Shown here: piece by piece, positions 5,064-20,306 of the stretch
Layout: every line of letters begins with the position of its first letter
Position numbering within the stretch: position 1 is the first letter of the stretch
DNA from: a bacterium
GTDB taxonomy: Bacteria > UBA9089 > CG2-30-40-21 > SBAY01
Direction of reading: 5' to 3'
Length of the DNA stretch: 20,361 nucleotides
NCBI GenBank assembly: GCA_040757115.1
Contig: JBFLYA010000053.1
Coordinates: 1-20,361 of the forward strand
Position numbers and translations under genes: made by a program
The notes under the pieces: model-generated
The model's input: only the letters and a program-made list of their open reading frames with translations
The model's database searches: none
What the model was told of the DNA's origin: nothing

Positions 5064-8000
5064 CTATATATCTTTCTGATAAGGGTCTGTGGTTACATCC
5101 AGTTTGAGGTTTTCAAGATAGAGGTTATACTTAAATAAAATATTCTTCACTGAATTTAGTTCTGCCTCAAGCGAAGCCTTTAATAATTCCTCTATCTCTT
5201 GTGCCCGAGAAGTATTAGGTCTTACAATACTTAGGAAGATGGTCTTTTTGTTAGGCTCAATCTTTATGTCTTTTACTATTTCGTGCTTATAATACTCCTC
5301 CACATCTTTCTTACTAATCTTTTTGTTTTTCCGGATATATTCAGGTGGAATACGGTCTTTATCTGCATCTAAGGCATCTGCCAATCTTAAGATAGCTGCT
5401 AATAATTGGAGTCTTACCTTATAGGAATTACCCGCAAATGTATACTGGGCATCTTGTAGCTCATCCAGGGATTCTTTCTTAGGATGGGCACGACAAATTA
5501 TGGCAATTTGATTAGCCATAGACTCATCAGAAAGTCCAATTTCTCTCCACTCCTTCATTATCTTCTCATAACTTCTCCTGTTATGTTCTTTTCGCGCTTT
5601 TTGCGCTGTTTCTTTATTTTTATAATCCTCACCATTTTCAGGGACAAGTCCAATATCGTGGAGATAGGAAGCTGCCTTAAGTAAGAAGTATTCATATTCA
5701 TTCAAGAGGTTTTTGTCTTTTACCCCGCACCCCGTAATGCCTCGCCCTTCAGGGCGGGGATGTAGGGGTGCAATTGAAACATCATTAAGAATGCCTCGTC
5801 CTTTAGGACGGGGTGCGGGGTTTACTATTTCATCCATTAATTCTTTGACTTTAAGTGAGTGGCTCATCCCATGGCGGTTAAAGGTGCCAAAGTAGTCACA
5901 GCTTGCAGGTAAGTATTCCAGTTCTTTTGCAGAATAGCGCTCTATATTTTGTTGGATTTCGGTTAATAAATTGAGTATTGAGTCTTTTGAGATGGCTTCC
6001 TGAGGGAGTATAATTCTGCTTTCGCCTGGCTCCTTCTCTACTAATTTCTTAAGGGATTCGTAGGCAGAATTTTTTACATTGTTGTCTTTATCCTTGAGTG
6101 CCTCAAGGAGTGCATTGATGACCTTATCATCTGCACGACCTAAATTGCCCAGTGCCTCGGCTGCATTACTACGCACATACCAGTCTTTATCCTTGAGTGC
6201 CTCAAGGAGTGCATTGATAACCTTATCATCTGCACAACCTAAGTTGCCCAGTGCCTCGGCTGCATTACTACGCACAAACTCGTGTTTATCCTCTATTGCC
6301 TTAAGGAGTGCATTGATGACTTCATCATCTGCATGACCTAATCTGCCCAGTGCCTGGGCTACATTACCACGCACATTCTCTCTTTCATCCTCCAGTGCCT
6401 CAAGGAGAGCATTAATGACTTTATCATCTGCACGACCTAAGTTGCCCAGTGCCTTGGCTGCATAAAGACGCACAAGCTTGTATTTACCCTTAAGTACCTC
6501 AAGGAGAGCATTAATGACTTTATCATCTGCATGACCTAATCTGCCCAGTGCCTCGGCTGCGTTCTCACGCACATACCCTTCTTCATCCTTAAGTGCCTTA
6601 AGGAGTGCATTGATGACCTTTTCATCTACATAACCTAATCTGCCCAGTACCTTGGCTGCATTACTACGCACATGCCATTCTTTTTTATCCTTGAGTTCCT
6701 TAAGGTATGCATTGATGAGCTTTTTATCTACACAACCTAATCTCCCCAGTGCCTCAGCTGCATGAAGACGCACATCCGGGTCTTCATCCTTAAGTGCTTC
6801 AAGGAGTGCATTGATGAGCTTTTTATCTACACAACCTAATCTGCCCAGTGCCTCGGCTGCATCACTATGCACATTCCAGGCTCCACCTTTATCCTTGAGT
6901 GCTTCAAGGATGGCGTTGATAACTTTCTCATTTGCATGACCTAAGTTGCCCAGTGCCTTGACTGCCTCACGACGCACATACCAATCTATATCCTTATCCT
7001 TGAGTACCTCAAGGAGAGCATTGATGACTTCATCGTCTGCATGACCTAAGTTGCCCAATGCCTTGACTGCATGAAAATGCACAAACAACGGGTTTCTATC
7101 CTTGAGTGCCTCAAGGAAATTGTTAATTATCGCATCTGCCTTCTTTGTTCCAACTAAAGAAGCAAATACCCTCTCAATCTCATCATAGAGAGGGTAAAAT
7201 TCTGGCTCCTTCCACAACTCCCAAAGGTCATCCAGTATCTTCTTTTCTAACGAGGAATCTATCTCAGGAATATCAGAGAGGCAAAGACCTGCCAAAAGTA
7301 GGGGTTGGTGGAAAACATCATAATAGAGTGGTTTTTGTTCTAAGATGAATTCAATAAAATCCTTTGGCTCTTTAAGCTTACCAGCAATAAGTCTTATTAC
7401 CTCTCTAAACCTTGGATTAAAGAGTATAGGCTCAAGAAGCAAAGCCGGCTCTTCTTTTTCCCTTACAATCCAGCAAGCGGCTAAATATTCCTGAAAGGTA
7501 AGGTGGAGGAAGATATATTGCCCTTCGCCAAGTGAACATAAAAGACCACTCTTTTCTCTAATCTCTTTTAATACATCATCGGCATTGTAATCCTCTTTCT
7601 TATTCATTAGAAAGGTTTTTATAATCTCCCTTAAATCAGCCTCTTCAAATATCTCTTTTTTCTCAAGGAAATAAGAGGCTATCTTTTCTAACACACTTTC
7701 TTTAATAGAAAGGGGAATCTTGGGTTCTCTCAAATTCAGCAAATTATGGACTGCCTTTTTATATAACTCAATCCGGCCAGCAGGTAGCTTGAGGTTTTGT
7801 CTGTTAAAGACAAAGCAGAGTATCTGTAAAAGCAATGGGTTCTTAGAAAGGGGAATCATCTGGGGTGTCTTCTCTAAGGCAGAGAGAAAGCTAGATTCAT
7901 CCTTAAGATAATCCTCTGCATAAGAGGAGATATTTTCTTTATTTAAAGGCATTACCTCATAATGTTGCCAGCCTGACAATTCATTATTGTATCCGGCAAT

Positions 8001-8744
8001 TCGGGTGGTTACTAAAAGAGGGCAGTTTCTATACTCCCCAGAGCTTGTGTTTTGCAAGGCTTGGATGATAGATTGCCTATTCTGGGTTACCTCATCCAAG
8101 CCATCACAAAGGATGATACATCTACCCTTCTTAAGCCAATCTTTTATTAAGGATTCAATCTCCTCTTCAAAACCGCTGTTTTTTAAGGCATATTTCGCAT
8201 AATACCCAGGAAGGGAATCTCCTTTATCTGCCCAATCCTTCAAATCTATCAATAGAGGAATCAAATCCTGTTTTATTTTACGCTCTCTCTTGTTGGTGAC
8301 TAAAGAATAGGCGATATAGTGAGTAAGGGTAGTCTTTCCTGAGCCTGGGTCTCCCTTGACTACAATCTTCTTATTTTGGATGGCTTTCCAGATGTCTACG
8401 ACCACTAAAGAATGTCTTTCGGAAGAAGAGTGTATCTCTCGCCATACCTTGAAATCTACATCCTCGCCTAATTCTTTAGATTCTAATAGCTCTCTCTTGG
8501 TAGGCTTTTCTTCTCTTTCTTGGCCTAATTGGAGGGGGATATAATTCTCCATCGTCAAGCTGATATTTTCATCAAGGCAAGGTATAGTCTTGTATTTATC
8601 CCTGATGAACTGGCAATATCTGGGGGTTAATTTTTCCATTCTTTTAGATGGTTTTTTATCTTCTTTGTGAATATGCACATCCCTACCTGCCTGAATAACC
8701 TCAATATTCTGACTATGGCTAATTTCTATCTTTTGCTTTTTCAT
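5064..8744 (-). CDS. NACHT-HEAT repeat-HD(CE-like) protein, probable NLR-like immune effector
   Basis: This is a large predicted STAND switch protein of 1226 aa. Order of parts: residues about 10-28 carry a short beta-type segment (NIEVIQAGRDVHIH) often seen at the N-terminus of bacterial NACHT proteins. The NACHT NTPase follows, with Walker A GDPGSGKTT near 131-139, Walker B IILCDGLDE near 210-218 and sensor LLVTTR near 243. About 11 HEAT repeats of 31-33 aa (EALGRLG-type helices) cover about 545-905. A C-terminal HD phosphohydrolase domain resembles the HD-CE type: HGMSHS near 966, LHDIG near 1028, then a downstream RAHP and LRLADALDADKDR. Known bacterial NACHT proteins sense phage and trigger effectors; here the HD domain would be the effector, which is inference. 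A 100-bp palindromic element is inserted in frame in the HD domain. I prefer the ATG at 8744, with TAAGG upstream, over the adjacent TTG. The stop is TAG. The gene starts 33 bp after an AAA/DUF4143 gene. Confidence 0.85.
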   Translation of the reverse strand: MKKQKIEISHSQNIEVIQAGRDVHIHKEDKKPSKRMEKLTPRYCQFIRDKYKTIPCLDENISLTMENYIPLQLGQEREEKPTKRELLESKELGEDVDFKVWREIHSSSERHSLVVVDIWKAIQNKKIVVKGDPGSGKTTLTHYIAYSLVTNKRERKIKQDLIPLLIDLKDWADKGDSLPGYYAKYALKNSGFEEEIESLIKDWLKKGRCIILCDGLDEVTQNRQSIIQALQNTSSGEYRNCPLLVTTRIAGYNNELSGWQHYEVMPLNKENISSYAEDYLKDESSFLSALEKTPQMIPLSKNPLLLQILCFVFNRQNLKLPAGRIELYKKAVHNLLNLREPKIPLSIKESVLEKIASYFLEKKEIFEEADLREIIKTFLMNKKEDYNADDVLKEIREKSGLLCSLGEGQYIFLHLTFQEYLAACWIVREKEEPALLLEPILFNPRFREVIRLIAGKLKEPKDFIEFILEQKPLYYDVFHQPLLLAGLCLSDIPEIDSSLEKKILDDLWELWKEPEFYPLYDEIERVFASLVGTKKADAIINNFLEALKDRNPLFVHFHAVKALGNLGHADDEVINALLEVLKDKDIDWYVRREAVKALGNLGHANEKVINAILEALKDKGGAWNVHSDAAEALGRLGCVDKKLINALLEALKDEDPDVRLHAAEALGRLGCVDKKLINAYLKELKDKKEWHVRSNAAKVLGRLGYVDEKVINALLKALKDEEGYVRENAAEALGRLGHADDKVINALLEVLKGKYKLVRLYAAKALGNLGRADDKVINALLEALEDERENVRGNVAQALGRLGHADDEVINALLKAIEDKHEFVRSNAAEALGNLGCADDKVINALLEALKDKDWYVRSNAAEALGNLGRADDKVINALLEALKDKDNNVKNSAYESLKKLVEKEPGESRIILPQEAISKDSILNLLTEIQQNIERYSAKELEYLPASCDYFGTFNRHGMSHSLKVKELMDEIVNPAPRPKGRGILNDVSIAPLHPRPEGRGITGCGVKDKNLLNEYEYFLLKAASYLHDIGLVPENGEDYKNKETAQKARKEHNRRSYEKIMKEWREIGLSDESMANQIAIICRAHPKKESLDELQDAQYTFAGNSYKVRLQLLAAILRLADALDADKDRIPPEYIRKNKKISKKDVEEYYKHEIVKDIKIEPNKKTIFLSIVRPNTSRAQEIEELLKASLEAELNSVKNILFKYNLYLENLKLDVTTDPYQKDI
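5722..5821. repeat. 100-bp palindromic element inserted in frame in the NACHT-HEAT-HD gene
   Basis: Perfect 14-bp inverted ends, ACCCCGCACCCCGT (5722-5735) and ACGGGGTGCGGGGT (5808-5821), enclose two near-identical 20-bp palindromic units (about 5740-5759 and 5794-5813). The unit cores are CGCCCT-TC-AGGGCG and CGTCCT-TT-AGGACG, so a base change on one arm is matched on the other. The host reading frame runs straight through and encodes PAPRPKGRGI and HPRPEGRGI, between the first His helix and the HD motif of the HD domain. High GC and Pro/Arg/Gly content contrast with the AT-rich gene around it. It resembles in outline the protein-coding palindromic elements described in Rickettsia, but it is not the same sequence as far as I can tell. 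Confidence 0.85.
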
Positions 8745-8777
8745 CAAACCTTACCCTTGGTAAGAAAATCATCAATC

Positions 8778-10046
8778 TTATCCCATCAACCATTTTGTAA
8801 GGGGAATAAGGTTAATCCAAAAACCTTTAAATTCTTCTTTTGCCTCTACATCCCAGGTAATTACAGTTAAGTTTTTGCAATTTAATCTTTCAGCTCCCAG
8901 AATTAAAGATTTAAACTCCCTTTCTTTTGTTTTAATCTCTTCTATTTTATAACAGACCTGGATTAACTCTTCTATCTTTGTCTTTTCTTTTAGAACAAAA
9001 TCTATCTCTTTCCCCCTTGCATCTTTGTAATAATAGAACTCAATCAATGGTCTTTCATTCTGTCTTCTTAATAGCTCTAAAAACACACAATTTTCCATTA
9101 ATCTTCCGATGTCTTCCTGGAATCGGACAACCTTTGAGATGCCTGTGTCGCAGAGATAGACCTTTTTCGGCCAGGCTTCTTTCTCATATATCTTTTCTGA
9201 ATACCTCAAGAGAAAGAATACACTTACTGAATCTTGAATCTTTTCGCAATAATCATATAAGGTATTTTTTCCAATCCTCTTTCCTTGTGATTTTAAGAAG
9301 CTAAAGATTTTATTTATGCTGATTTCACAAGAAAGATTTTGGGCAAAGAATGAAAGGAGGAATCTTGCCAGAGCGATATTTTTTAATTTATGCCTTTCCA
9401 CCAGGTCACGGAAAAGGATGAGTTCATAAAACTCTTTTAATATCCGCTCCTTCTCTTTTTCTTTAATTATCTCTGGGAAACCTCCAAATTCTAAATATCT
9501 TCGCAATTTACCCCTTATTTCTGCTCTTTCCTCCTTTGAAAGAGAGCCTACTAAAGAAATTCCTTCTGCTCTTAAAAATTCAGAAAAACTAAAAGGAAGA
9601 AGCAAATATCTGAATGTCCTTCCCCTTAAAGAGGTAGCAATTTCATAAGCCAGTAGTTTTGAAGAAGAGCCGGTAATAAAGATTTTGTATCTTTGGGTAT
9701 CCAGGATTTCTCTTACCGCAAGTTCCCAATTTTGAATATTTTGAATCTCATCAAAGAATAAATACTTTGGTTCTCTTGCGGTAAGTTCTTTATAAGTTCT
9801 TATTAAATCCCTTATTTCCTTGAAATTGACATCTGTTAATCTTGTATCTTCAAAGTTTAGATAAAGGGCTTCTTCTTTCTTGTCTTTCATTAACTGATAG
9901 AAGTAATATGTTTTTCCTGCCCTTCTTGGTCCGATGATAGAGATTATTCTTTCTGTTTCTGTTATCATTAGCTCCCTTTCTATCAAAGGCGGAATAGGTC
10001 TTTTGGTATATTCTAAGATGTAATCTTCAACCAACTCCCGATTCAT
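8778..10046 (-). CDS. AAA ATPase with DUF4143 C-terminal domain (AAA_14 family)
   Basis: This 422-aa ATPase belongs to the common AAA_14 plus DUF4143 family (COG1373-like), whose function is not settled. Walker A GPRRAGKT is at residues 39-46, Walker B YLFFDEIQNI at 95-104, and the sensor strand IFITGSSSKL near 122-131. The C-terminal DUF4143 region is nuclease-like in look: FYYYKDARGKEIDFVLKE followed by ELIQVCYKI. The length is complete. I start at the ATG at 10046 because AAGGAGAG lies about 7 nt before it; an ATG 21 bp upstream precedes that site. It is the first gene of a two-gene unit with the NACHT-HEAT gene 33 bp downstream, driven by a probable promoter at 10100-10128 with a palindrome over the -35 box. 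A paralogue sits next to the HNH-STAND gene in this window. Confidence 0.88.
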   Translation of the reverse strand: MNRELVEDYILEYTKRPIPPLIERELMITETERIISIIGPRRAGKTYYFYQLMKDKKEEALYLNFEDTRLTDVNFKEIRDLIRTYKELTAREPKYLFFDEIQNIQNWELAVREILDTQRYKIFITGSSSKLLAYEIATSLRGRTFRYLLLPFSFSEFLRAEGISLVGSLSKEERAEIRGKLRRYLEFGGFPEIIKEKEKERILKEFYELILFRDLVERHKLKNIALARFLLSFFAQNLSCEISINKIFSFLKSQGKRIGKNTLYDYCEKIQDSVSVFFLLRYSEKIYEKEAWPKKVYLCDTGISKVVRFQEDIGRLMENCVFLELLRRQNERPLIEFYYYKDARGKEIDFVLKEKTKIEELIQVCYKIEEIKTKEREFKSLILGAERLNCKNLTVITWDVEAKEEFKGFWINLIPLTKWLMG

Positions 10047-10099
10047 AGGCTCTCTCCTTAAAGACAATTTTGTATATTTTTTTCTTTCCTGTTGAGATA

Positions 10100-10129: not shown

Positions 10130-10138
10130 GATTTTTCT

Positions 10139-10540
10139 AACCGTTCAGGCTATATATCAAAAGTGTAAGAAAGGGGATAAGGAGATAAGAGTGATATGGA
10201 GATAAGATAATAGAATATAGATTGAAATTTATAGAAATAGGTAGAAATTGATTGTGGAAAACAACAAATTTCCATAAATTTCTATTAGTTTCTATGTAAC
10301 TGCTCATCATCAAGTGGCAATCTGCACCTTACAGCTTCAACAGCCACATAATATCTAAAGAACCGTTTTTTATGGCGAAGGGCCACATGGACAACAAACT
10401 GTACTTGCCTTTCCAATCATTTCTGCCAAGGAGGGCAGCCTGTATTCTCCAGAAAGTCTATTAATTTCAATTTTTTTAATAATATCTCCCTATCTCCTTA
10501 ATCTCCACATCTCCTTTTGTTACACCACCTGAACGCTTAC
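10139..10540. repeat. About 400-bp element with long imperfect terminal inverted repeats
   Basis: This fills most of the gene-free stretch 10047-10771. The left end AACCGTTCAGG (10139-10149) matches the inverse of the right end CCTGAACG (10528-10535). The similarity continues inward imperfectly for about 80 bp on both sides: GGAGAT tracts, then ATAATA, then ATTGAAATT and ATAG. A further CCTGAACGGTTA at 10651-10662 marks a third copy of the end sequence, as if elements were nested. Between 10541 and 10682 are a CACGAATTTCACGAATT-type repeat and an 8-bp hairpin GTGTCTGG / CCAGACAC. Decayed coding sequence lies inside the element at about 10285-10460. No transposase or intact gene is present. 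Confidence 0.55.
10285..10460 (-). pseudogene. Decayed coding fragment inside the inverted-repeat element
   Basis: Two overlapping minus-strand frames read as protein-like but are broken. Upstream is a frame giving LSGEYRLPSLAEMIGKAS, which ends at a stop at 10370-10372. Another frame follows from 10416 to a TAA at 10285, giving FVVHVALRHKKRFFRYYVAV and then EAVRCRLPLDDEQLHRN. The overlap suggests one frameshift in a former small gene. I do not recognise the family. The call rests only on the protein-like composition of the two frames. Confidence 0.3.
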
Positions 10541-10682
10541 AAGTCCAGATATAGGAAAGTATAACATACCACGAATTTCACGAATTGGACGAATAAAAAT
10601 GTGTCTAAGTGTCTGGTAGTCTGTAACCCAGACACCCAGATATCAGCCTACCTGAACGGTTACTCATTTTGACATTAGCTTG

Positions 10683-10771: not shown

Positions 10772-13270
10772 TCAACACGGATTCAGATTTCGCAGTAGTT
10801 GCTCAGCCTCAACCCTGGGCCAGTGGTAGTGCATCTGGCTGGCTTTTTGGTAAGTGGATTGGGCGAAAATTTTGGTCTGGTCAAGATCATTTAACCCCAG
10901 ATATGCCTTAGCTAAGATTAGCTCTGCATCGGGTTCGTAGAGTAAAAAGCCTGTGCGAGCACATAGCTTCAGGACTTGGTTTGCCTGAGAGATAGCCTCT
11001 TTATATCTTTTCATATCCAACCACAACCTGCTCAACTCAAGCAAGGTTTCGATTTCAAGAAAAGGCATGCCAACCTTTCTTGCAATCTCAAGGGCTTGCT
11101 GAAGATGGACCTCAGCATCCTTGCGGTTTCCCTTTATCCTTTCAATGGTACCAAGGCAGCGGTGACATTGCGATATCTGAGCCGGCCAATTATTCCTCTG
11201 GCAGACCTCAAGGTTTGCTTTGGTAAGTTCAAAAGCCTCATCAATCTGCTTGATTGAGATTAGAAAATCAGCATAGAAAATTCCCCATCCACTGTAAAGC
11301 CGATACCCACTGAGCTTTCCTTCAAGCTCATCTGCCTGCCAAAACCCCTTTTCTGCTTCCTCATTCTTGCCCGCAAGATGGAGTATCCAGGCAAGATAGG
11401 CTTTTGAAACCACAATATACTGCTCAGAACCGGCCTTCTCTGCTGCATCATGTGCCTTTTTGGCACTCTCATCTGCCTCCTTGAGCCTGCCTACTCGAAA
11501 CTGGAGGTCAGCCAAGTTTCGATAACCTGTAGAGGCGTTTTTCCAGTCTTTGTCTTCGATTTGCATATTTGTCTTTCGAACGAAAAGCTCCTCTGCCTCT
11601 TTTGGCCGGCCTGTAGCAAGAAGAGATAGTCCGGCTTCATTGAACAGCCAGCCTTGGTCGCTCTTCTTGCTTACCAGCGGCATCTGTGAAAGGTTTCCGT
11701 CCGGAAAGAAAGTTCTGGCAAGGAATAGATTGGTTTCCCAGGCGCCAAGTTTATGGATAATAAATAGTTCCTCCCTTCTGTATATTTTCTCCCAATAGAC
11801 ATCTTTCCGCACCTCATCATAAAACCTGGCAGAACATCCATGATATACCTGCTCAAACAATGGCTGCATTTCTTCTAAGGTTTCTGGCTTATCTTTTGCT
11901 ATTTTTCCAAAGTATTCATAGATTGCTTTGTGGGTTAGCTTCTTTTCCTTTTCATCAAATATCGCCTCAAAGTAGCCCTTAATCAAAGGATGGGTAGTAT
12001 AGGTATTATCAGAGCCTTTGGTAATAAGCCTTCTTTGGCAAAGGTTATCTACCATTCTCTGGAAATAAAAATCTACCCTGGTTTGGAATATCTCCTTAAA
12101 CTCCCTTTCCGAGACTGCACCCCTAAACAGGGAGAATATCTTCATAAATCTCCTTTGTTCTTCATTTAATTGCTTATCATACCACCGCAGGATTCTATGT
12201 GCCTTACCCCCTGCCTCCTGGTCTGAATAGAAGGGCGGTATTTCCTTTGCTCTCTTAATATCACCCCCAGGGCCTAAATAATTTGCCAGGAGAACAAGGC
12301 TCAGGGTATGGCCCTTAAATTCTTTCCAGATGTCATCTATCTCATCCTCTGTTCCTCTTACCCCAATTCTTTGAAACAATAGCCGGGTATCCTCTTTTGA
12401 TAATTCCTCTATCTCAAGCCTTTGATAACTTGGGTAATTCTTGATGTCAGTCAAAGGGAACCTTGTAGTTATCAGGCACAAGCCTCTAAAATCTGCATCA
12501 GCAATGTATTTGAGTAAGTCAGTAAACTCTGGGTGTTGCAGATTACCAAATTCTTCGCCGGTTTGTGATTTTTGCATCTCCTCCAGACCATCCAGGATAA
12601 TGAGATATTCCCTTTCCAAAAGAAGCTCTTTTATTTTATCGGTCTTCTGCCAGGAGGTCTTGTAGTCATCAAGCTTAAATCTATCCTGGGAGAGATAGGT
12701 AAATAATGCGCTAAGAAAACGCTCAAGATAAGGGTTGCGATAAAACCCCCACCAGAATATGCCATCAGGCTGGATGTTGTTTTCTTTCAGGGAATCAAAC
12801 CATTTTCTTACCAATGCCGATTTTCCTACCCCACCCCAGCCGACTAATGCCCCAATCTTTACATCCGGTGATTTATACCATTTTGTAATGGTTGTAAGCA
12901 TCTTTTTCCTACCCACAAAATTCGGCTCGGGTGGGATTTGATTGTGCAGGCTGAGTAGGAGTATTCCAGGCGCTTTCCTTATCCGTTCTTCAAGTGGCAG
13001 CCCCTGAGCACAAAGATTAACCCATCTCTCCTTATACATTTTAAGCTGTCTGGGTGTATACATCGTTCGTATCCGATGTATTTTTGCATGGCAGGTTGGG
13101 CAGACGACCATAAGGTTCTCTTCGGTGTTGGGTCCTTTTTCACTTATGGGCACAATGTGGTGAATATCGGTAAGATTCTCATGTTGAGGACAGAGACAGC
13201 AGCGGTGCATTGCCTCAACCGATAGCCTATCTTTTATATCTTCAGGAATAGCTTTGCGTTGGTGTGCCAT
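10772..13270 (-). CDS. HNH endonuclease-STAND NTPase-TPR protein, probable antiphage NLR-like protein
   Basis: This 832-aa protein fuses a nuclease to a signalling ATPase. Residues about 20-66 are an HNH domain with zinc-binding pairs CCLC (24-27) and CPTC (57-60), the IHHI core (36-39), the ENL segment (51-53) and a final HAKIH. An NB-ARC/AP-ATPase-like P-loop domain follows the NFVGRKK entry: Walker A VGWGGVGKSAL at 143-153, Walker B LIILDGLEE near 223-231, sensor CLITTR near 265-270. A winged-helix-like region follows, and then about 560-830 is helical with TPR-like pairs (LLATGRPKEAEELF, LAGKNEEAEKGF, RIKGNRKDAEVHLQQALEIARK). The expected logic is that TPRs sense a trigger, the NTPase oligomerises, and the HNH cuts DNA. 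This follows known Avs/NLR-like systems but is inferred here. The ATG at 13270 starts 9 bp after the DUF4143 frame ends, with AGGAG some 15-18 nt upstream. The last codons and stop overlap a repeat related to ATCCGTGTTAATC. Confidence 0.87.
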   Translation of the reverse strand: MAHQRKAIPEDIKDRLSVEAMHRCCLCPQHENLTDIHHIVPISEKGPNTEENLMVVCPTCHAKIHRIRTMYTPRQLKMYKERWVNLCAQGLPLEERIRKAPGILLLSLHNQIPPEPNFVGRKKMLTTITKWYKSPDVKIGALVGWGGVGKSALVRKWFDSLKENNIQPDGIFWWGFYRNPYLERFLSALFTYLSQDRFKLDDYKTSWQKTDKIKELLLEREYLIILDGLEEMQKSQTGEEFGNLQHPEFTDLLKYIADADFRGLCLITTRFPLTDIKNYPSYQRLEIEELSKEDTRLLFQRIGVRGTEDEIDDIWKEFKGHTLSLVLLANYLGPGGDIKRAKEIPPFYSDQEAGGKAHRILRWYDKQLNEEQRRFMKIFSLFRGAVSEREFKEIFQTRVDFYFQRMVDNLCQRRLITKGSDNTYTTHPLIKGYFEAIFDEKEKKLTHKAIYEYFGKIAKDKPETLEEMQPLFEQVYHGCSARFYDEVRKDVYWEKIYRREELFIIHKLGAWETNLFLARTFFPDGNLSQMPLVSKKSDQGWLFNEAGLSLLATGRPKEAEELFVRKTNMQIEDKDWKNASTGYRNLADLQFRVGRLKEADESAKKAHDAAEKAGSEQYIVVSKAYLAWILHLAGKNEEAEKGFWQADELEGKLSGYRLYSGWGIFYADFLISIKQIDEAFELTKANLEVCQRNNWPAQISQCHRCLGTIERIKGNRKDAEVHLQQALEIARKVGMPFLEIETLLELSRLWLDMKRYKEAISQANQVLKLCARTGFLLYEPDAELILAKAYLGLNDLDQTKIFAQSTYQKASQMHYHWPRVEAEQLLRNLNPC

Positions 13271-13279
13271 CTTATATCA

Positions 13280-14593
13280 TTAACTCTCCTCTAAAAGCCA
13301 TTTCCATAATGGAATATAGTTTATTTTTTTATCCTCAACATCCTCTTCTGCCTCATAATCTTCTGTGATAACGAAGCCTTGTTTGAGATTCAACTCCTTC
13401 ATAGCCTTAAGCAGTGCTGAAACCTCCCTCTTTCTTGTCCTGGGGCTGTTCACATCCCAGCAGACCTAAATGAGCTCTTTTGGCTTAAAATCCTCCTTCA
13501 CCACAAAATCCACTTCCCTGTGATGCACATCCTTCCAGTAATAAAGCTCTAAGTTAGGCTTTGCACATCTCCTTCTTTCTAACTCCAAAAAGACAAGATT
13601 CTCTGCAAGCCTGCCTAAGTTTTCTGAGAATCTGAAGCCGATGGTGTTGGCAAGACCTATATCTATGGCATAGACCTTCCTGGGGCTCTTCTCCTGCTCT
13701 TTAACCCTGAAGGAGAACCTTTTGAGGAAATACAGGATATAGGCCTCTCTCAAATAACCAGAGAATCTCTCAATGGTGTCTGCTGATACTTTTAAGAATT
13801 TTTCTAAGGAACTAAAGGTTGTAAGGGAAGATATGTTGCTCAGGTAGAACCTGGTGAGGCTCATCAGCTCCTCTCCCTTCCTTATCCTGAACCTCTTTAT
13901 GATATCCCTGTTTAATATATCCTCAAAAAGCTTAAGCAGAATCTCTCTTCTTTCTTTGGCAAGGACCACCTCAGGGAATGAGCCAGACTCTAAGCACTCC
14001 CTTTGTAATCTCTTTATGTTGGTCTCTTGATTTATGAGGTCAAGTCTGTCTTTGAGATTGATACCGCAAAATGTAAGATACTCTCTGAAGGAGAGAGGAA
14101 ATAATGTGAGGTCCAGATGCCTTCCAGTGAGTAGAGTAGCCAATTCTGTACTCAGCAGTTTTGCGTTTGAGCCTGATATGATAAGTTGTGCTTTATTCAA
14201 CTCATGAACTGTTCTCACCCACTTTTCCCATTCCTTTGCCTCCTGAACCTCATCTAAGAAGAGATAGGGTCTCTGCTTTGGGTTTAGGAACTCCAAATAG
14301 ACTTCGTATATCTTCTGCAAGTTTTTGGCATCCAACCCAGTGAATCTTGGGTCTTCAAGGTTGACAAATAGTATCCTGTTCTTCTCCACACCCTCTTTGA
14401 TCAAGGACTTGGCCAATTGCCTCATCATAAAAGACTTTCCACTCCTCCTTGCACCAGTAATCACGATGATATGGGAGGTGGTGAGGAAGCCTTTGAGCCT
14501 GTTGAGGTAGTGAGGCCTTTCGTATCCTGTGGCTAAATCCTTCTTCCAGAAGTTCCAGTCTTCTAATACCCTGATTATCTCATTTTTCTCCAT
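13280..14593 (-). pseudogene. AAA/DUF4143 ATPase with one premature in-frame amber codon
   Basis: The frame encodes a 437-aa member of the AAA_14/DUF4143 family if the TAG at 13466-13468 is ignored; otherwise it ends at 375 aa. Walker A GARRSGKS (47-54) and Walker B LFLDEVQE (111-118) are intact, as is the LYYWKDVHHREVDFVVKE core of the C-terminal domain. The TAG stands exactly where the paralogue in this window has Gln, in ELI-Q-VC. The 61 codons after it remain open and family-like, ending WKWLLEES. So one CAG-to-TAG change explains it. TAG is a normal stop elsewhere in this window (metF, NACHT-HEAT, AAA-TPR), so genetic recoding is unlikely. A truncated but partly active ATPase, readthrough, or a sequencing error remain possible. 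The promoter is a perfect consensus. The full frame ends 9 bp before the HNH-STAND start. Confidence 0.8.
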
Positions 14594-14667: not shown

Positions 14668-14892
14668 GACCTTCTACTTCCTTATCTATGATTCAGACAC
14701 TGGACATCAGACACAAGACTATAGATTCTATTTATGCAGGAAATTAGTGACATTTGGGAAACCATCCTCAAAACTTCACTCCCTGAATTTTTCCACCTGT
14801 GCGGTTAGATTAACCTCCCTCACATCTTTTAAAACCACGAACGACCCACAAGTGGGTACCCCGGAAGGGGATGAAGAATTATAAACCAAATC
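14668..14892. other. Gene-free stretch between promoter and repeat element
   Basis: I find no intact gene here. A plus-strand ATG at 14734 opens a 24-codon frame (MQEISDIWETILKTSLPEFF then HLCG, stop TAG at 14806-14808). It resembles the start of a protein and may be a remnant, but it has no clear ribosome site and no identifiable family. Confidence 0.3.
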
Positions 14893-15180
14893 GTAACTAT
14901 TCAGCCACAGATGGACACGGATGAAACACGGAAAAATCTGTGAGGCGTGTCCGAGATCCGTGTCTGTAATTAGGCTGAAGGGTTTTTCTCCTCTATCCTT
15001 CTTGATTTTCTGCCAGTGTAGGGAATTTCCACCCCCTAACCCCCGCCAGCGGGGGACAACCCACCCCCTATCCCGCCAACGGGGGACAACCCGCCTCTAA
15101 CCTCTGTCTTCTGTCCTCTGCCTTCTGTCCTCTGCTATTTATCTGTGCCAATCCGTGTTAATCAGTGGCTGAATAGTTAC
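14893..15180. repeat. Inverted-repeat element abutting the AAA-TPR stop codon
   Basis: About 288 bp is bounded by inverse copies of GTAACTATTCAGCCAC, at 14893-14908 on the plus strand and 15165-15180 on the minus strand. Similarity runs on through ACACGGAT on both sides. A smaller nested inverted unit spans 14900-14979: TTCAGCC with ACACGGAT at one end, ATCCGTGT with GGCTGAA at the other. The right end overlaps the first base of the AAA-TPR stop triplet, so the element marks or supplies that gene's end. The same end sequence, in the form GTAACCGTTCAGCCAC, recurs at 20235-20250. No coding capacity is seen. Confidence 0.65.
15029..15090. repeat. Two tandem copies of a GC-rich palindromic unit
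   Basis: Units at 15029-15060 (32 bp) and 15061-15090 (30 bp) share CCACCCCCTA, then CCCGCCARCGGGGGACAAC. The first contains a perfect hairpin CCCCCGC-CA-GCGGGGG (15040-15055). A pyrimidine-rich microrepeat, CTTCTGTCCTCTGC, repeats just after it (about 15102-15135). It sits within the inverted-repeat element downstream of the AAA-TPR gene. Confidence 0.7.
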
Positions 15181-17915
15181 TATTTTTTTATCTTTTCTCT
15201 TGCCTCTTTGAGCCAATCTTTGCCGTATTTAGCCTCAAACAATTTTTCTATTAGCTTTCTTTCTACCGCCTCAAGCCGTTCAAGTCTTTTTAGTGCTTTC
15301 AATGGCTCGTCTCTTTCTAAATATCCTCCTATTTCATTTGCCACAAAGAAGATGTTAAGCCTCATCCAGAGCTTTTCCCAATTTAGCTCCTTAAGCATAT
15401 CTTTCAATATAATAGCCTCTTCATATCGGCTTTTAGAAAACAGGTCTTTAAGAAGAAGGATGAATGCCTCATCTATGTCATCGGAAGGTATCTCCATAGC
15501 CCTTATCTCTCCTAATCTCTTCTTTACTAAACCATAATTCTTACTCTCAAGTTGAAACTCTATGGAATAGAAAGATTTCTGAGGTTTCAGCCTTATTCCT
15601 TCTTTATAAGCCGCAAAGCCTTCTTCATAACGACCAAGCTTATCAAGTATCTCTCCTTTGTTATACCACGCTACAGCATCATCAGGCTTTAATTCTATTG
15701 CCTTCTCAAAGGCGGCAAGTGCTTCTTCATAACGACCAAGCTTATCAAGTATACATCCTTTGTTATACCACGCTATAGCCTCATCAGGCTCTAATTCTAT
15801 TGCCTTCTCATAGGCGGCAAGTGCTTCTTCATAACGACCAAGTTCACCAAGTGCATATCCTTTCCTCCACCACGCCAAGGCATCATCAGGTTTTAATTCT
15901 ATTGCCTTCTCAATTGCTACAAGTGCTTCTTCATAACGACCAAGTTCACCAAGTGCATATCCTTTCCTACGCCACGCCAAGACATCATCAGGCTTTAATT
16001 CTATTGCCTTTTCAAAGGCTACAAGTGCTTCTTCATAACGACCAAGTTCACCAAGTATCCATCCTTTGTTATACCACATCCAGGCACAATCAGACTTTAA
16101 TTTTATTGCCTTCTCAATTGCTACAAATGCTTCTTCATAACGACCAAGATTACCAAGTATACATCCCTTGTTATTCCACGCGAAGGCATCATCAGGCTTT
16201 AATTCTATTGCCTTCTCATAGGCTGCAAGTTCTTCTTCATAACGACCAAGTTTACCAAGTATCCATCCTTTGTTATTCCACGCTTCAGCCATATCAGGTT
16301 TTAATTCTATTGCCTTCTCAGTTGCTACCAATGCTTCTTCATAACGACCAAGTTCACCAAGTGCATATCCTTTCCCACGCCACGCCCAGGCATCATCAGG
16401 CTCTAATTCTATTGCCTTCTCATAGGCGGTAAGTGCTTCTTCATAACGACCAAGTGTACCAAGTTCAACTCCCTTATCAACCCATTCCTTAGCCAAATCA
16501 GGTCTTTCCTTATCTCGCTCAATTTCATAAGAAAGAGGTTCAAGAAATGGCTTTTCAATAATAAACCTCTCCTTTAATCTGATTGCTTGCTCATAAAGCC
16601 CTACCAGTTCACCTGGCACCTTTTTCTTAAGCCCAATTAATTCATCATGACTAAAGATATGGGCAAATAAAGGGATGACAAATGACCATTTCTCTTGCCA
16701 GGAGCCACCCTTTCTCCATTTATACCAGATAGAAAAAAGTGGTTCAGAGAGGATATAGAATCTTTCCTTCCCTGTGCTTTCTGTAGCACTCCTTAGCCAA
16801 CCCTTCTTTATCAGCCGCAAGATGTAAGTGGAAACCTCGGCTAAACTAAAGGAGGTCTTCTCTTCAATCTCTTTAGGTTGCAAGGATTGCTCGGATTCGG
16901 CAAATAACTCTATTATCTTTCTTTCCTTTGGAGGTAAAATCCACAAAGCCTCTCTGTAGATTAAGGTGAGCTTCTCAAATATCTCCTGCATAAATCCAAA
17001 AGAAGACCGCCATCTAATCTCTGCGGATTTTTCATCATCTATCCTTCCACATTCAGAGAGAACAATCTCAAAGAGGGGAAAGATCATTCTTGGCAGTCCT
17101 CCTGAAAGATAAGAGATTGCCTGGAAGATTCTTATTCTTCTCTCACCCTGGGGAGAACGAAGATATTTAATTAGCCGGGGAGACTCTTTGGCATAAAACT
17201 CTTGAATCCTTGAGATGAGCTCAAAAGACTCACTATCGCTGAACCTACTAATCTCATGTTTTTTAAAATAGCCATAAATAGAAGAATCCCTTTTGCCAAG
17301 AATTTCAATAAAGGTTGCTGATGTAGCCAATAGTTTAAGGCTCTTTGAACGGGGCAGGAGAGAAAGGAAGTTATCTACCTCGTTTTTTTCAAAGGAGTCA
17401 ATCAACCGATCAAGATTCTCTACCATTATTATCGTTCTTTTCCTGAATCTATCTCTTATCTCCTCAAATACACTTTTTGCTCGATTGAATCGCTTATCTT
17501 TATTCTCACCCTCTTCAACCCATTTAATCTTACTATTGACAAATTCGTGAATTTTTTCATCTTGTATCGTCCTTCCGGGTATATTGATAATCACCTCAAG
17601 GGCTCTTTGGAGTATTTCCGCCACATTTCTTGCGCCAAAGAGCTCCTCTGGAAGCAGGATAGGGAAATAGTGTTTTGAGAGGGATGTATCTTCTTTTATC
17701 CGATGAAAGATTATAGAAAGGAGGAAGGTTTTTCCTATCCCGGCTGGACCATAAAAGAGGTGGGACTGAAGGTATCTATCCGACTCTATCTCCTCTTTTA
17801 ATTCTTTGATTATATCCTCTACATAATCCTTTCTTTCTCTTCCTACAAAGATAGACTCTAAATCTTCGGCTCGTTCAACCGCAGGATGAAAGCGACTTAT
17901 CAAGATCTCGCTCAT
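15180..17915 (-). CDS. AAA/STAND-like ATPase with nine C-terminal TPRs
   Basis: This 911-aa protein is the third gene of a tight operon. Residues 1-320 form an Orc/Cdc6- or archaeal-ATPase-like P-loop domain: entry FVGRERKDYV near 23-32, Walker A GPAGIGKT at 56-63, Walker B TIIMVENLDR at 161-170, and an LLATSATF sensor strand. A winged-helix segment follows near 330-400 (LQPKEIEEKTSFSLAEVSTY, then ILRLIKKGWL). Residues about 475-780 hold nine 34-aa TPRs with near-identical consensus (AWYNKG, LGRYEEALAAYEKAIELKPDD). A helical C-terminal region of about 130 aa is not recognised. The ATG overlaps the TGA of the upstream AAA gene (ATGA), so translation is coupled and the two ATPases probably work together. 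TPRs normally bind protein ligands, so a sensor role is inferred. The stop is TAG at the edge of a repeat element. Confidence 0.85.
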   Translation of the reverse strand: MSEILISRFHPAVERAEDLESIFVGRERKDYVEDIIKELKEEIESDRYLQSHLFYGPAGIGKTFLLSIIFHRIKEDTSLSKHYFPILLPEELFGARNVAEILQRALEVIINIPGRTIQDEKIHEFVNSKIKWVEEGENKDKRFNRAKSVFEEIRDRFRKRTIIMVENLDRLIDSFEKNEVDNFLSLLPRSKSLKLLATSATFIEILGKRDSSIYGYFKKHEISRFSDSESFELISRIQEFYAKESPRLIKYLRSPQGERRIRIFQAISYLSGGLPRMIFPLFEIVLSECGRIDDEKSAEIRWRSSFGFMQEIFEKLTLIYREALWILPPKERKIIELFAESEQSLQPKEIEEKTSFSLAEVSTYILRLIKKGWLRSATESTGKERFYILSEPLFSIWYKWRKGGSWQEKWSFVIPLFAHIFSHDELIGLKKKVPGELVGLYEQAIRLKERFIIEKPFLEPLSYEIERDKERPDLAKEWVDKGVELGTLGRYEEALTAYEKAIELEPDDAWAWRGKGYALGELGRYEEALVATEKAIELKPDMAEAWNNKGWILGKLGRYEEELAAYEKAIELKPDDAFAWNNKGCILGNLGRYEEAFVAIEKAIKLKSDCAWMWYNKGWILGELGRYEEALVAFEKAIELKPDDVLAWRRKGYALGELGRYEEALVAIEKAIELKPDDALAWWRKGYALGELGRYEEALAAYEKAIELEPDEAIAWYNKGCILDKLGRYEEALAAFEKAIELKPDDAVAWYNKGEILDKLGRYEEGFAAYKEGIRLKPQKSFYSIEFQLESKNYGLVKKRLGEIRAMEIPSDDIDEAFILLLKDLFSKSRYEEAIILKDMLKELNWEKLWMRLNIFFVANEIGGYLERDEPLKALKRLERLEAVERKLIEKLFEAKYGKDWLKEAREKIKK

Positions 17916-19243
17916 TTTGCAGGAAACCTCCTCCAGAAGTCCCTTAATAATTTTGATTTAAAAGAGTATTTGCCATTTTTCTCTTCTATCAAGAGGTCAT
18001 CTATAAGCCATTGAATCATATTTTCAAACTCCTCTTGTTCAAGACCAGTCTTTTCTTTAAAAATCTTCTTTGCCATCCCTTTTTCTATCTCTTCTTTAGC
18101 CATTTCAGAAAGCATAGCATAACCTGCCGATGACAATCTTCCAGGATACCTTCTGGGTAAATCCTGAAAGTCTCTTAAAAGATTCCAGCCCTCTTTACCT
18201 ATTAACCTTTCATATATCTCTTCAGGGCATACATCTTTTTTCTCTCTATATACCTCATTCCACACATAGACAAAGATATGAATAAAGTAAGGCACATAGG
18301 TTTCAAGGAGATTACATATTTCTTCAATCTCTCCCTTTTTTGGGATTATCTGTGAATTGTAAGCAAGTTCTTCAAGGAGTAGATTTGCATCCTGTCTTTC
18401 AAGCAAAGGAAGATCAATCTTTTCAAAATTAGAAAGGGTTTGCCCAGCAATTCTATCCTCTGCTTCACTACTTGCCGTAATGAATCTTATATTAGAAAGA
18501 TTAAAGAACCGGTCAAAATTTAGAGGTTCATTATTATTTTTAAGATTTCTTAAGAATTCAGCAAACTCGTCAACCAGGAGTAAGTAGTGTTTATCTTGAG
18601 GGAAAAGAGAAGGTAGTATACTCTCTAACCCCTCTTTTGATGTCTTTTCAATTTCTTCCCTTTGTTTTTGACGTTCAAGGGAATTGCCCTTTTTTATTTC
18701 GTATCCAATTGCCCCTAAGAATGCTCTCACATCTTGCAGATTTCTTGCCTGGATGAAGAGGGGTTGATAAGGTTGGGGTGGTCTTTCAAAGATGGCATTA
18801 AGTATTGAGGTCTTTCCATAACACCTTGGAGCACGGAGAGAAATATGCCTTTCTTTAAGCAATTCCAATATTTCCAAAATCAAATTTTCCCTGCCTACAA
18901 GTTCATCAAAGGGAAGAAGGGTTCTTAGGCGAATAAGGAAGGTAGGAATTCTATTCTTTGTAAAGAGCCATTCAAGATGCCTTCTAAATCTCTCTTCATT
19001 AAAACTTCCATCTTTATAGGCATATTCTACAATATCTTTTACCTCTTGAGCCTCCTTACTGGTAGATGAGGTGGTAGTAAGTTCTAAAGAATGCTTTTGG
19101 GCAAGTTCCTTAGCCGTATTAAGGAGAAGAAAGTAAAGGTCTAAAATTTTTGTGTCGTTGACTTCCTTTCTTTCATTTATAATTCCCAAAGAGAATCCTT
19201 TGTCTTTGTTTGAGAATTCAAGAAGATATTTATAAGTTTTCAT
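17912..19243 (-). CDS. AAA ATPase with altered Walker A and C-terminal winged helix
   Basis: This 443-aa protein lies between the RelA/SpoT-like gene (14-bp overlap) and the AAA-TPR gene (4-bp ATGA overlap). Residues 1-100 are an unrecognised N-terminal domain. An ATPase domain follows, with the LVGREN entry at 115-120, a P-loop APRCYGKTS at 138-146 and Walker B HYLLLVDEFAEF at 219-230. The first P-loop Gly is replaced by Ala, although the essential Lys-Thr remains, so nucleotide binding is likely and hydrolysis uncertain. An FITASSEAEDR sensor strand follows. The last 75 residues look like a winged helix (KKIFKEKTGLEQEEFENMIQ). It resembles archaeal-type AAA ATPases found in two-gene pairs. 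Inferred role: adaptor or switch that links the TPR sensor to the nucleotidyltransferase. No effector domain of its own is visible. Confidence 0.8.
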   Translation of the reverse strand: MKTYKYLLEFSNKDKGFSLGIINERKEVNDTKILDLYFLLLNTAKELAQKHSLELTTTSSTSKEAQEVKDIVEYAYKDGSFNEERFRRHLEWLFTKNRIPTFLIRLRTLLPFDELVGRENLILEILELLKERHISLRAPRCYGKTSILNAIFERPPQPYQPLFIQARNLQDVRAFLGAIGYEIKKGNSLERQKQREEIEKTSKEGLESILPSLFPQDKHYLLLVDEFAEFLRNLKNNNEPLNFDRFFNLSNIRFITASSEAEDRIAGQTLSNFEKIDLPLLERQDANLLLEELAYNSQIIPKKGEIEEICNLLETYVPYFIHIFVYVWNEVYREKKDVCPEEIYERLIGKEGWNLLRDFQDLPRRYPGRLSSAGYAMLSEMAKEEIEKGMAKKIFKEKTGLEQEEFENMIQWLIDDLLIEEKNGKYSFKSKLLRDFWRRFPAK

Positions 19244-19949
19244 GTTGGTTTTGTTCCTTTATGTACTTCTTCCAGGTCTTATCAGCAAATTCGTCAGCAA
19301 TCATCAGTAATCCGCTTAAGGCATGAAAACGGTCCTGGATGGATTTAATCTCTGGGTGGTTTACATTTTTCCTTATTTCTTCATAAATTATGTGCTGTTT
19401 AATATCCCACGCCTCTTGCAGTGAAGTCATAATCTGGACCTCAAGATAATACACCTTTTCATCCCTTTTCATCTTAAAATACTCATGGATAGCCCGATGT
19501 GCCCCTTTTTCAAAACTCAAACCTGCTTCAATTCTTTTATCTTTTCTCTTATCTTCACAGTATTCAAAAGGGACAGGGTCAAAATCAGACTTATTCTTTA
19601 ACTTTTCATCTATTTTCTCCATATCCGAGTTATAATTACATAGAATACGGCAGCGGGCAATATCGTCAAGCTTTAAGATACAATCTTCGATAAATCCTTT
19701 TAGATTTGATGCAGAAGGCTTTTTCTTTATAGTTTTATTAATCTTTTCAACAATAGAGGAAGAGGATTTAAGCCTATTTTTATTCTCTATATCTATCCAA
19801 TAGGCTTTTCTTCCATATTGAAAAAAGATTTTGTCATTCTCTTGGGTTATAAAATCAAAAAGTTTTTTTATAAAATTGTCATAGAAGATTTCCCAGGTAC
19901 TTCTTAAATCCTGAATAATTTTAATAGTGTCGTTGTTTAGTTCAGGCAT
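19230..19949 (-). CDS. RelA/SpoT-like nucleotidyltransferase domain protein (candidate alarmone-type effector)
   Basis: This 239-aa protein is a stand-alone RelA/SpoT synthetase-type domain with no HD hydrolase, TGS or ACT domains, the size class of small alarmone synthetases. Family landmarks: KSSSSIVEKI (61-70) matches the start of the fold. LDDIARCRI (94-102) carries the metal-binding Asp. GAHRAIHEYF (149-158) corresponds to the GYRSLH motif. LEVQIMT (169-175) holds the catalytic-type Glu. W181 and H186 fit the following helix. The substrate motif is divergent (Ala-His for Tyr-Arg), so the product may not be (p)ppGpp. Toxic synthetases of this type pyrophosphorylate nucleotides or tRNA. 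As first gene of an operon with two AAA ATPases it is the obvious effector, which is inference. A ribosome site AGGAAA precedes the ATG; the consensus promoter lies only about 25 bp upstream. Confidence 0.82.
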   Translation of the reverse strand: MPELNNDTIKIIQDLRSTWEIFYDNFIKKLFDFITQENDKIFFQYGRKAYWIDIENKNRLKSSSSIVEKINKTIKKKPSASNLKGFIEDCILKLDDIARCRILCNYNSDMEKIDEKLKNKSDFDPVPFEYCEDKRKDKRIEAGLSFEKGAHRAIHEYFKMKRDEKVYYLEVQIMTSLQEAWDIKQHIIYEEIRKNVNHPEIKSIQDRFHALSGLLMIADEFADKTWKKYIKEQNQHENL

Positions 19950-19971: not shown

Positions 19972-20000
19972 ATTATACCACAGTATTAAATTTTTGTCAA
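19972..20000 (-). promoter_or_regulatory. Perfect consensus sigma70 promoter of the RelA/SpoT-AAA-TPR operon
   Basis: On the minus strand TTGACA (19995-20000) and TATAAT (19972-19977) are both perfect, with exactly 17 bp between them. The predicted start is near 19965, giving a leader of about 15 nt with an AGGAAA ribosome site before the ATG at 19949. A promoter this strong in front of a likely toxic operon implies tight repression, and repeated palindromes lie directly upstream. Confidence 0.85.
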
Positions 20001-20058
20001 CTAAAATTTTAATCAACAAATTTGTTAGTCAACAAATTTGTTAGTTAACAAATTTGTT
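19999..20058. promoter_or_regulatory. Array of 16-bp-spaced palindromes, probable operator
   Basis: Three perfect copies of the palindrome AACAAATTTGTT lie at 20015-20026, 20031-20042 and 20047-20058, each 16 bp from the next. Flanking bases AGT and TAA are also shared. A decayed fourth copy, AACTAAAATTTT, falls in register at 19999-20010 and overlaps the -35 box of the operon promoter. Regular spacing of about 1.5 helical turns suits cooperative binding by a dimeric regulator. The regulator is not identified here; no small DNA-binding protein is adjacent. Confidence 0.8.
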
Positions 20059-20103: not shown

Positions 20104-20238
20104 GTTCTGCTGTTGGAGAGTCAAAAAGAGTAGCTATCTCTTGAGAAGGAAGTTACAGAGGATGAAGAGAGGTGGTGTCGAATTTCAATAAAGATCAGGA
20201 AACCCCAACAAGTTGATCAAGATGAGAATAATGTGTAA
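20104..20238 (+). pseudogene. Decayed plus-strand coding fragment, unidentified
   Basis: This frame reads LLLESQKE, then TAG (20131-20133), then LSLEKEVTEDEERWCRISIK followed by about 13 more residues to a TAA at 20236-20238. The composition is protein-like, with a coiled-coil look and then a strand. A neighbouring frame just upstream (LDSLSKR, about 20081-20103) would join it by a frameshift. So this may be the C-terminal remnant of a lost gene. The family is not recognised. Its stop lies inside a GTAACCGTTCAGCCAC repeat. Confidence 0.3.
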
Positions 20239-20306
20239 CCGTTCAGCCACAGAGGCACAGAGTTCACAGAGAATTAGAGAAATTAGCCACAAATGGACAC
20301 GAATTA
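20235..20306. repeat. Dispersed repeat beginning GTAACCGTTCAGCCAC
   Basis: The segment starts with GTAACCGTTCAGCCAC (20235-20250), near-identical to the ends of the element at 14893-15180. It continues with CACAGAG-type and CCACAAATGGACACGAATTAA sequence, like the interior of that element. The rest of the window (20307-20361) holds nothing I recognise. Confidence 0.55.

Follow-up and report, generated by a model that had tools for sequence, protein, structure and literature searches.

Enzymes with the SYNTH fold of the RelA/SpoT superfamily can act as anti-phage growth-arrest effectors, as CapRel and the toxSAS enzymes do (PMC9712102, PMC11559606). CapRel is a fused toxSAS that carries a pseudo-zinc-finger sensor, and the toxSAS pairs (FaRel2/ATfaRel2, FaRel, Tas1/Tis1) combine a stand-alone SYNTH enzyme with a partner in one operon. 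RelA domains also occur as occasional effectors in the MoxR-vWA ternary conflict systems (Kaur et al. 2020, PMC7159879). Here we describe a three-gene operon found in positions 1 to 20,361 of contig JBFLYA010000053.1 (assembly GCA_040757115.1), a bacterial stretch of 20,361 nucleotides that is called the window throughout. The operon looks like a conflict system of the STAND type whose effector is a divergent SYNTH enzyme, in an apparently undescribed arrangement and with a putative role in phage defence.

Results

Organisation of the operon

The three genes lie on the minus strand. Gene 1 (19230..19949) encodes a stand-alone, SYNTH-fold (RelA/SpoT) nucleotide pyrophosphokinase-like enzyme of 239 amino acids (aa), the putative effector. 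Gene 2 (17912..19243) encodes a STAND-like ATPase of 443 aa, with the AAA core and winged helix at residues ~100-443, and gene 3 (15180..17915) encodes a protein of 911 aa with an ATPase, a winged helix and a TPR array, the putative sensor. The open reading frames (ORFs) of genes 1 and 2 overlap by 14 bp and those of genes 2 and 3 by 4 bp, and no further sense-strand ORF of at least 80 aa was found in the unit. A sigma-70 promoter (TTGACA-17-TATAAT, 19972..20000, minus strand) with TG before the -10 hexamer precedes gene 1, and its hexamers match the consensus at 12/12 positions. This agrees with an earlier note on this DNA, made from the sequence alone, which had described three overlapping minus-strand genes behind one perfect promoter.

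Gene 1 is a SYNTH-fold enzyme with changed acceptor motifs

Gene 1 is a member of the RelA/SpoT SYNTH superfamily by profile, fold and catalytic residues. It matched Pfam PF04607 (RelA_SpoT) with 31.2 bits (E=2.9e-7, cut-off 27), and 21 of the 22 gene-1 homologues match this family. The AlphaFold model (pLDDT 86, pTM 0.84) superimposed on RelQ (5dec) with Z 18.0, at 2.3 Å over 186 aligned residues; the Z values were 17.9 for RelP, 13.8 for CapRel and 11.5 for Tas1. The earlier note had assigned a RelA/SpoT fold to this protein, and the assignment passed the profile and structure comparison that had been set beforehand as its test.

The catalytic Asp96 and Glu170 are invariant among the 22 homologues, as are Lys69, Arg99, Arg101, Gln172, Thr175, Trp181, Asp182, His186, Tyr189, Glu190 and Arg193, and the family keeps the ATP-side KSxxSIxxK loop. 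Gene 1 shares the fold, this loop and the catalytic Asp and Glu with RelQ/SAS1 and RelP/SAS2, but differs from them at other motifs. The Tyr of the G-loop YxSxH, judged by alignment against YwaC and YjbM, is replaced by His, Ile, Val, Asn or Glu in all 22 members, D[IL]xRxR stands in place of the DIAGxR of standard SYNTH enzymes, and Met, Leu, Val or Gln occupies the Arg position of QIRT. In further contrast to RelQ and RelP, gene 1 always adjoins a STAND-like ATPase.

The G-loop Tyr binds the acceptor by stacking on its base, and the CapRel substitution Y155A abolishes protection (PMC9712102); in FaRel2, Y128F at the acceptor-binding G-loop Tyr impairs the enzyme (PMC11782079). Because this residue is replaced in gene 1, the acceptor side looks different, whereas gene 1 looks functional on its donor side and in its catalytic pair. 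We infer from these motifs that gene 1 is still an active enzyme, and the loss of the Tyr leads us to predict an unusual acceptor.

Two known classes were considered for gene 1 and rejected. A canonical (p)ppGpp synthetase would carry the G-loop YxSxH, which is found in no member. By sequence gene 1 is also not a toxSAS, because the conserved Tyr (CapRel Y155, FaRel2 Y128) is absent in 22/22 homologues. Nor is there a small adjacent or fused antitoxin: the 239-aa protein carries no fused antitoxin domain, and the partners are ATPases of ~440 aa and longer. Thus, of the link to RelA/SpoT toxins drawn in the earlier note, the SYNTH fold stands, but by sequence a place among the toxSAS does not. 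Like CapRel, gene 1 is a SYNTH-fold enzyme and a proposed growth-arrest effector under a sensor, but it has neither the fused pseudo-zinc-finger sensor nor an equivalent of Tyr155, and separate ATPases would serve as its sensor and its relay. Compared with the toxSAS pairs, which likewise place a stand-alone enzyme in an operon with its partner, the acceptor-binding Tyr is lost, no small antitoxin gene is present, and there are three genes with two ATPases.

Genes 2 and 3 encode paired STAND-like ATPases

Gene 2 gave a weak match to AAA_16 in Pfam, under the cut-off, and no significant match in a sequence search of the PDB; fold comparison did give relatives. Residues 100-443 of the gene-2 model (pLDDT 90.5) resembled PABY2304 (2qen, Z 24.6), Sso1545 (22.8), the NRC4 resistosome (20.1) and CED-4 (17.6). 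PABY2304, the NLRs and CED-4 are STAND ATPases. Judged from its model, gene 2 is a STAND-like ATPase with an AAA core followed by helical and winged-helix domains, as in these proteins.

The P-loop of gene 2 had been called altered in the earlier note, and in the window copy (APRCYGKTS, with Walker B LLVDE) the first Gly is indeed absent. The altered motif does not, however, mark a defective enzyme. Across the family, the P-loop APRRxGK[TS]S and the Walker B DE show little or no variation, with GK[ST] and DE invariant in 20 copies. The change is no sign of decay because it is typical of the family, and gene 2 as a dead ATPase was rejected on the same grounds.

Genes 2 and 3 are homologous, as found by profile comparison (hhalign probability 98.3, E=1.7e-14, 319 columns). 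Gene 3 matched TPR_1 in 9 stretches (E=5e-85) and AAA_16 under the cut-off, which suits the sensing role that the earlier note had inferred for the TPR ATPase, the natural candidate for a sensor. Walker A is intact, Walker B reads [DE]N rather than DE, and the winged helix gave MarR-like matches. By its homology to gene 2 and its putative repeat sensor, gene 3 qualifies as a STAND-type ATPase at the level of sequence. The DNA of the TPR array (15620..16464, minus strand) consists of 8.3 copies of a 102-bp unit with 84% matches (Tandem Repeats Finder). Most of the gene-3 proteins that were read end in a TPR-type C-terminus, and the repeat unit differs between paralogous copies (102 bp in the window, 126 bp in the copy on contig C14 of the same genome).

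Gene 2 (100-443) shares the AAA core and winged helix with the STAND immune ATPases (Avs, bNACHT, plant NLR resistosomes and CED-4, and the archaeal PABY2304). As in these, a repeat array is added as a putative sensor, here on gene 3. The described systems consist of one protein with a fused effector, whereas here two homologous tandem ATPases accompany a separate enzyme.

The N-terminal domain of gene 2 occurs only with gene 1

The first part of gene 2 (~residues 1-99; 18947..19243, minus strand) is distributed differently from the rest of the protein. In searches of 195 and of 61 genomes, the full-length matches to the gene-2 profile (starting at profile positions 1-7) were exactly the gene-1-bearing loci, with one split locus (G098) appearing as two pieces. 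Other related ATPases matched from ~102 onward, apart from one weak exception that starts at 30 (E=1.9e-10). The first ~100 residues therefore travel with gene 1. Tandem pairs resembling genes 2 and 3 were found without gene 1 at three loci (L074, L076, L077), and these are also without the N-terminal domain. Since the domain occurs only beside gene 1, residues 1 to ~100 are probably a docking domain for the enzyme.

Conservation, distribution and mobility

A gene-1 profile scan of 84,980 species, together with phylum searches, found the triad in the phylum of the window, Myxococcota, other Deltaproteobacteria, Lentisphaeria and Solibacteraceae; a contig scan with the single gene-1 protein of the window as query had given no match. 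Gene 2 adjoins gene 1 on the same strand in 22/22 loci with a specific gene-1 homologue, and gene 3 comes next wherever the contig continues, except at L055 (genome G782), where a metabolic gene follows. At one locus (L021) the contig stops inside gene 2, and a second contig of that genome carries the remaining part of gene 2 together with gene 3. The co-occurrence that the earlier note had set as a test was thus borne out. The triad is still present around a gene-1 homologue with E=4.6e-23 (L056), and is absent around the more distant synthetases L017 and L019 and a 632-aa protein (L018). Over 18 loci, the pairwise distances of the three genes correlate with one another (Mantel r=0.93-0.96, p=0.0001), which argues for their inheritance as a unit.

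The system is rare. In phylum samples it was present in 9/195 genomes for the Myxococcus locus and in 1/247, 1/194 and 2/198 genomes for three others, each of these three samples including the genome that seeded it. The genome of the window (G000) has three copies (window, C248 and C14), and in their genes 1 and 2 the latter two are only ~25-35% identical to that of the window. Four more copies come from the same phylum (G001, G006, G014, G016); those of G016 and G006 are the contigs of the UBA9088 and 'Marinifilum' metagenome-assembled genomes of the profile scan. The same-genus genome (G001) has one copy, and two genomes of the same family have none.

Third-position GC of the operon was below that of the flanks by 0.06-0.18 in 11 loci, in GC-richer hosts, and by 0.05 at L016; it was higher in two AT-rich loci and nearly equal in the window. 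The distribution and composition fit horizontal spread of the operon, the composition of a few genes being no proof of it. No empty site was identified in the congener G001: none of the window operon genes align there, so the exact insertion is not placeable, and what does align to the window is an HNH-NB-ARC gene (82%) and, beyond it, only short pieces or dispersed repeats.

Upstream region and genomic surroundings

Four further copies from the phylum of the window (L011, L013, L015, L016) likewise have a perfect promoter directly before gene 1. Within the window the gene-1 promoter is not unique, because a second perfect sigma-70 promoter is found at 14667-14639 (minus strand), ahead of an AAA_14/DUF4143 gene (13466-14593) that thus has a promoter of its own. 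Just upstream of the -35 hexamer are three perfect AACAAATTTGTT palindromes with 16-bp spacing (20015..20058, no strand assigned), a possible operator. The triplet was found in the window copy only, and 0 are expected in shuffled sequence. Further upstream, a dispersed repeat at 20234-20306 is 98.6% identical to DNA of contig C167 of G001.

The neighbours of the window operon include NACHT, NB-ARC and PDC-S01 genes, and those of L013 include PDC-S01 and PDC-S27. Flanks read by sequence, with non-exhaustive annotation, were mainly of housekeeping type or unrelated at L012, L015, L016, L022, L053 and the Myxococcota loci. A defence island as the general location was not supported, although STAND and PDC-S01 neighbours occur at the window and L013.

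Among the window neighbours, 5064-8747 encodes a 1227-aa protein with NACHT, a long HEAT array (99-bp DNA repeats) and a C-terminal HD-CE domain, a candidate conflict protein. An HNH-NB-ARC-TPR protein is encoded at 10772-13270; its relative in the congener has 82% DNA identity (L119, 4902-7463), and a fragment of such a gene lies near the operon copy of G014 (L013, 591-906). The AAA_14/DUF4143 gene mentioned above and a second one at 8778-10067 encode ATPases that match the PADLOC candidate PDC-S01. A dispersed repeat (10132-10295 and 10457-10544), likely a small mobile element, is found at ~40 places in G001 and also in L012. Other dispersed repeats lie downstream of the operon (14788-14981 and 14888-15185), with a 35-nt inverted repeat pair (89%).

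Discussion

The arrangement appears to be new. The main texts of the open-access papers searched gave no account of a RelA/SpoT enzyme alongside two ATPases, an absence that is weak evidence, and neither these papers nor PADLOC contradicted the earlier note, whose author knew of no such arrangement. In PADLOC, gene 1 gave a weak partial match to the candidate PDC-S33 (27.9 bits), gene 2 gave none, and the matches of gene 3 came from its TPR repeats, apart from a weak one to CARF3. The MoxR-vWA ternary systems likewise have a RelA-type nucleotidyltransferase effector in a multi-component NTPase system; neither a MoxR ATPase nor a vWA protein was found in the operon by Pfam.

The most economical reading, and the one we favour, runs from a sensor (gene 3) through a relay (gene 2) to an enzyme (gene 1), the three genes forming one horizontally mobile signalling-effector module. 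The TPR array of gene 3, with its ATPase and winged helix, would meet a trigger, and gene 2 would use its dedicated N-terminal domain to hold or dock the gene-1 enzyme. The trigger would cause an ATP-dependent rearrangement of the gene 2-gene 3 ATPase pair, by which gene 1 is switched on. As a divergent SYNTH-fold pyrophosphokinase with ATP as donor, gene 1 would then pyrophosphorylate an acceptor that is probably bound in a non-usual, non-G-loop manner, and this activity would stop growth, most likely as a defence of the abortive-infection type. Growth arrest is a likely output by analogy, because known SYNTH effectors such as CapRel stop growth during phage infection, and the accessory character of the operon (patchy copies, composition unlike the flanks) also counts in favour. 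Taken whole, the reading has in our judgement about an even chance of being correct.

Several observations weigh against it. Most loci sit amid housekeeping genes and not in the defence islands that the earlier note had envisaged, no PADLOC system was matched by the operon, IMG/VR viral contigs gave no relative, and plasmids and phages yielded only distant generic synthetases (~22-32% identity). The lost G-loop Tyr could also mean weak or abolished catalysis by gene 1. L055 has genes 1 and 2 without an adjacent gene 3, which may thus be dispensable or encoded elsewhere.

Some of the same evidence bears on stress signalling, in which gene 3 would sense a stress, internal or of the envelope, gene 1 would respond by making an alarmone, and the output would be control of growth and not defence. 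The folds nearest to gene 1 are the non-toxic RelQ and RelP (Z ~18), ahead of the CapRel and Tas1 toxins, the location of most copies outside defence islands is as such a module would have it, and the strong promoter suggests constant expression. Yet YxSxH and the QIRT Arg, which are standard in (p)ppGpp synthetases, have been lost from gene 1, and the patchy distribution and mismatched composition better fit an accessory conflict system; we regard stress signalling as rather unlikely. A toxin-antitoxin-like unit, for which toxSAS offer a precedent (PMC11782079), would suit the gene overlap, the leading position of the enzyme and the closely associated partner domain on gene 2. Gene 2, or genes 2 and 3, would then neutralise gene 1, which would be released by proteolysis or phage shut-off and not by ligand sensing. 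The partner here is, however, a large two-ATPase machine rather than a small antitoxin, the ATPase motifs of gene 2 are conserved, and gene 2-gene 3 pairs occur without gene 1, all of which makes such a unit quite unlikely. These gene-1-free tandems at L074, L076 and L077 imply that the ATPase pair can act by itself, and they would accord with gene 1 being a signal source, whose nucleotide product or binding activates the ATPase pair, with the pair carrying the output. On the other hand, these tandems lack the N-terminal domain of gene 2, and genes 2-3 showed no further recognisable effector domain, so that we consider a role of gene 1 as signal source very improbable.

If the sensor-relay-enzyme reading is true, it adds a RelA/SpoT-type effector that answers to a cooperating pair of STAND-like ATPases; the toxSAS known so far are restrained by small antitoxins or by sensor domains fused to them. 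A bolder form of it, which we offer tentatively and with some doubt, is that gene 1 represents a distinct SYNTH class with a new acceptor, switched on by two bacterial STAND-like ATPases acting as sensor and helper, in functional parallel to the plant NLR pairs; the tandem ATPases would be a wider core, with gene 1 as one of its effectors. The tandem ATPases raise the question of whether bacteria, too, assign sensing to one switch protein and execution to its partner, as plant NLR pairs do. The copies in sequenced Myxococcota, among them the isolate Myxococcus dinghuensis, provide workable material.

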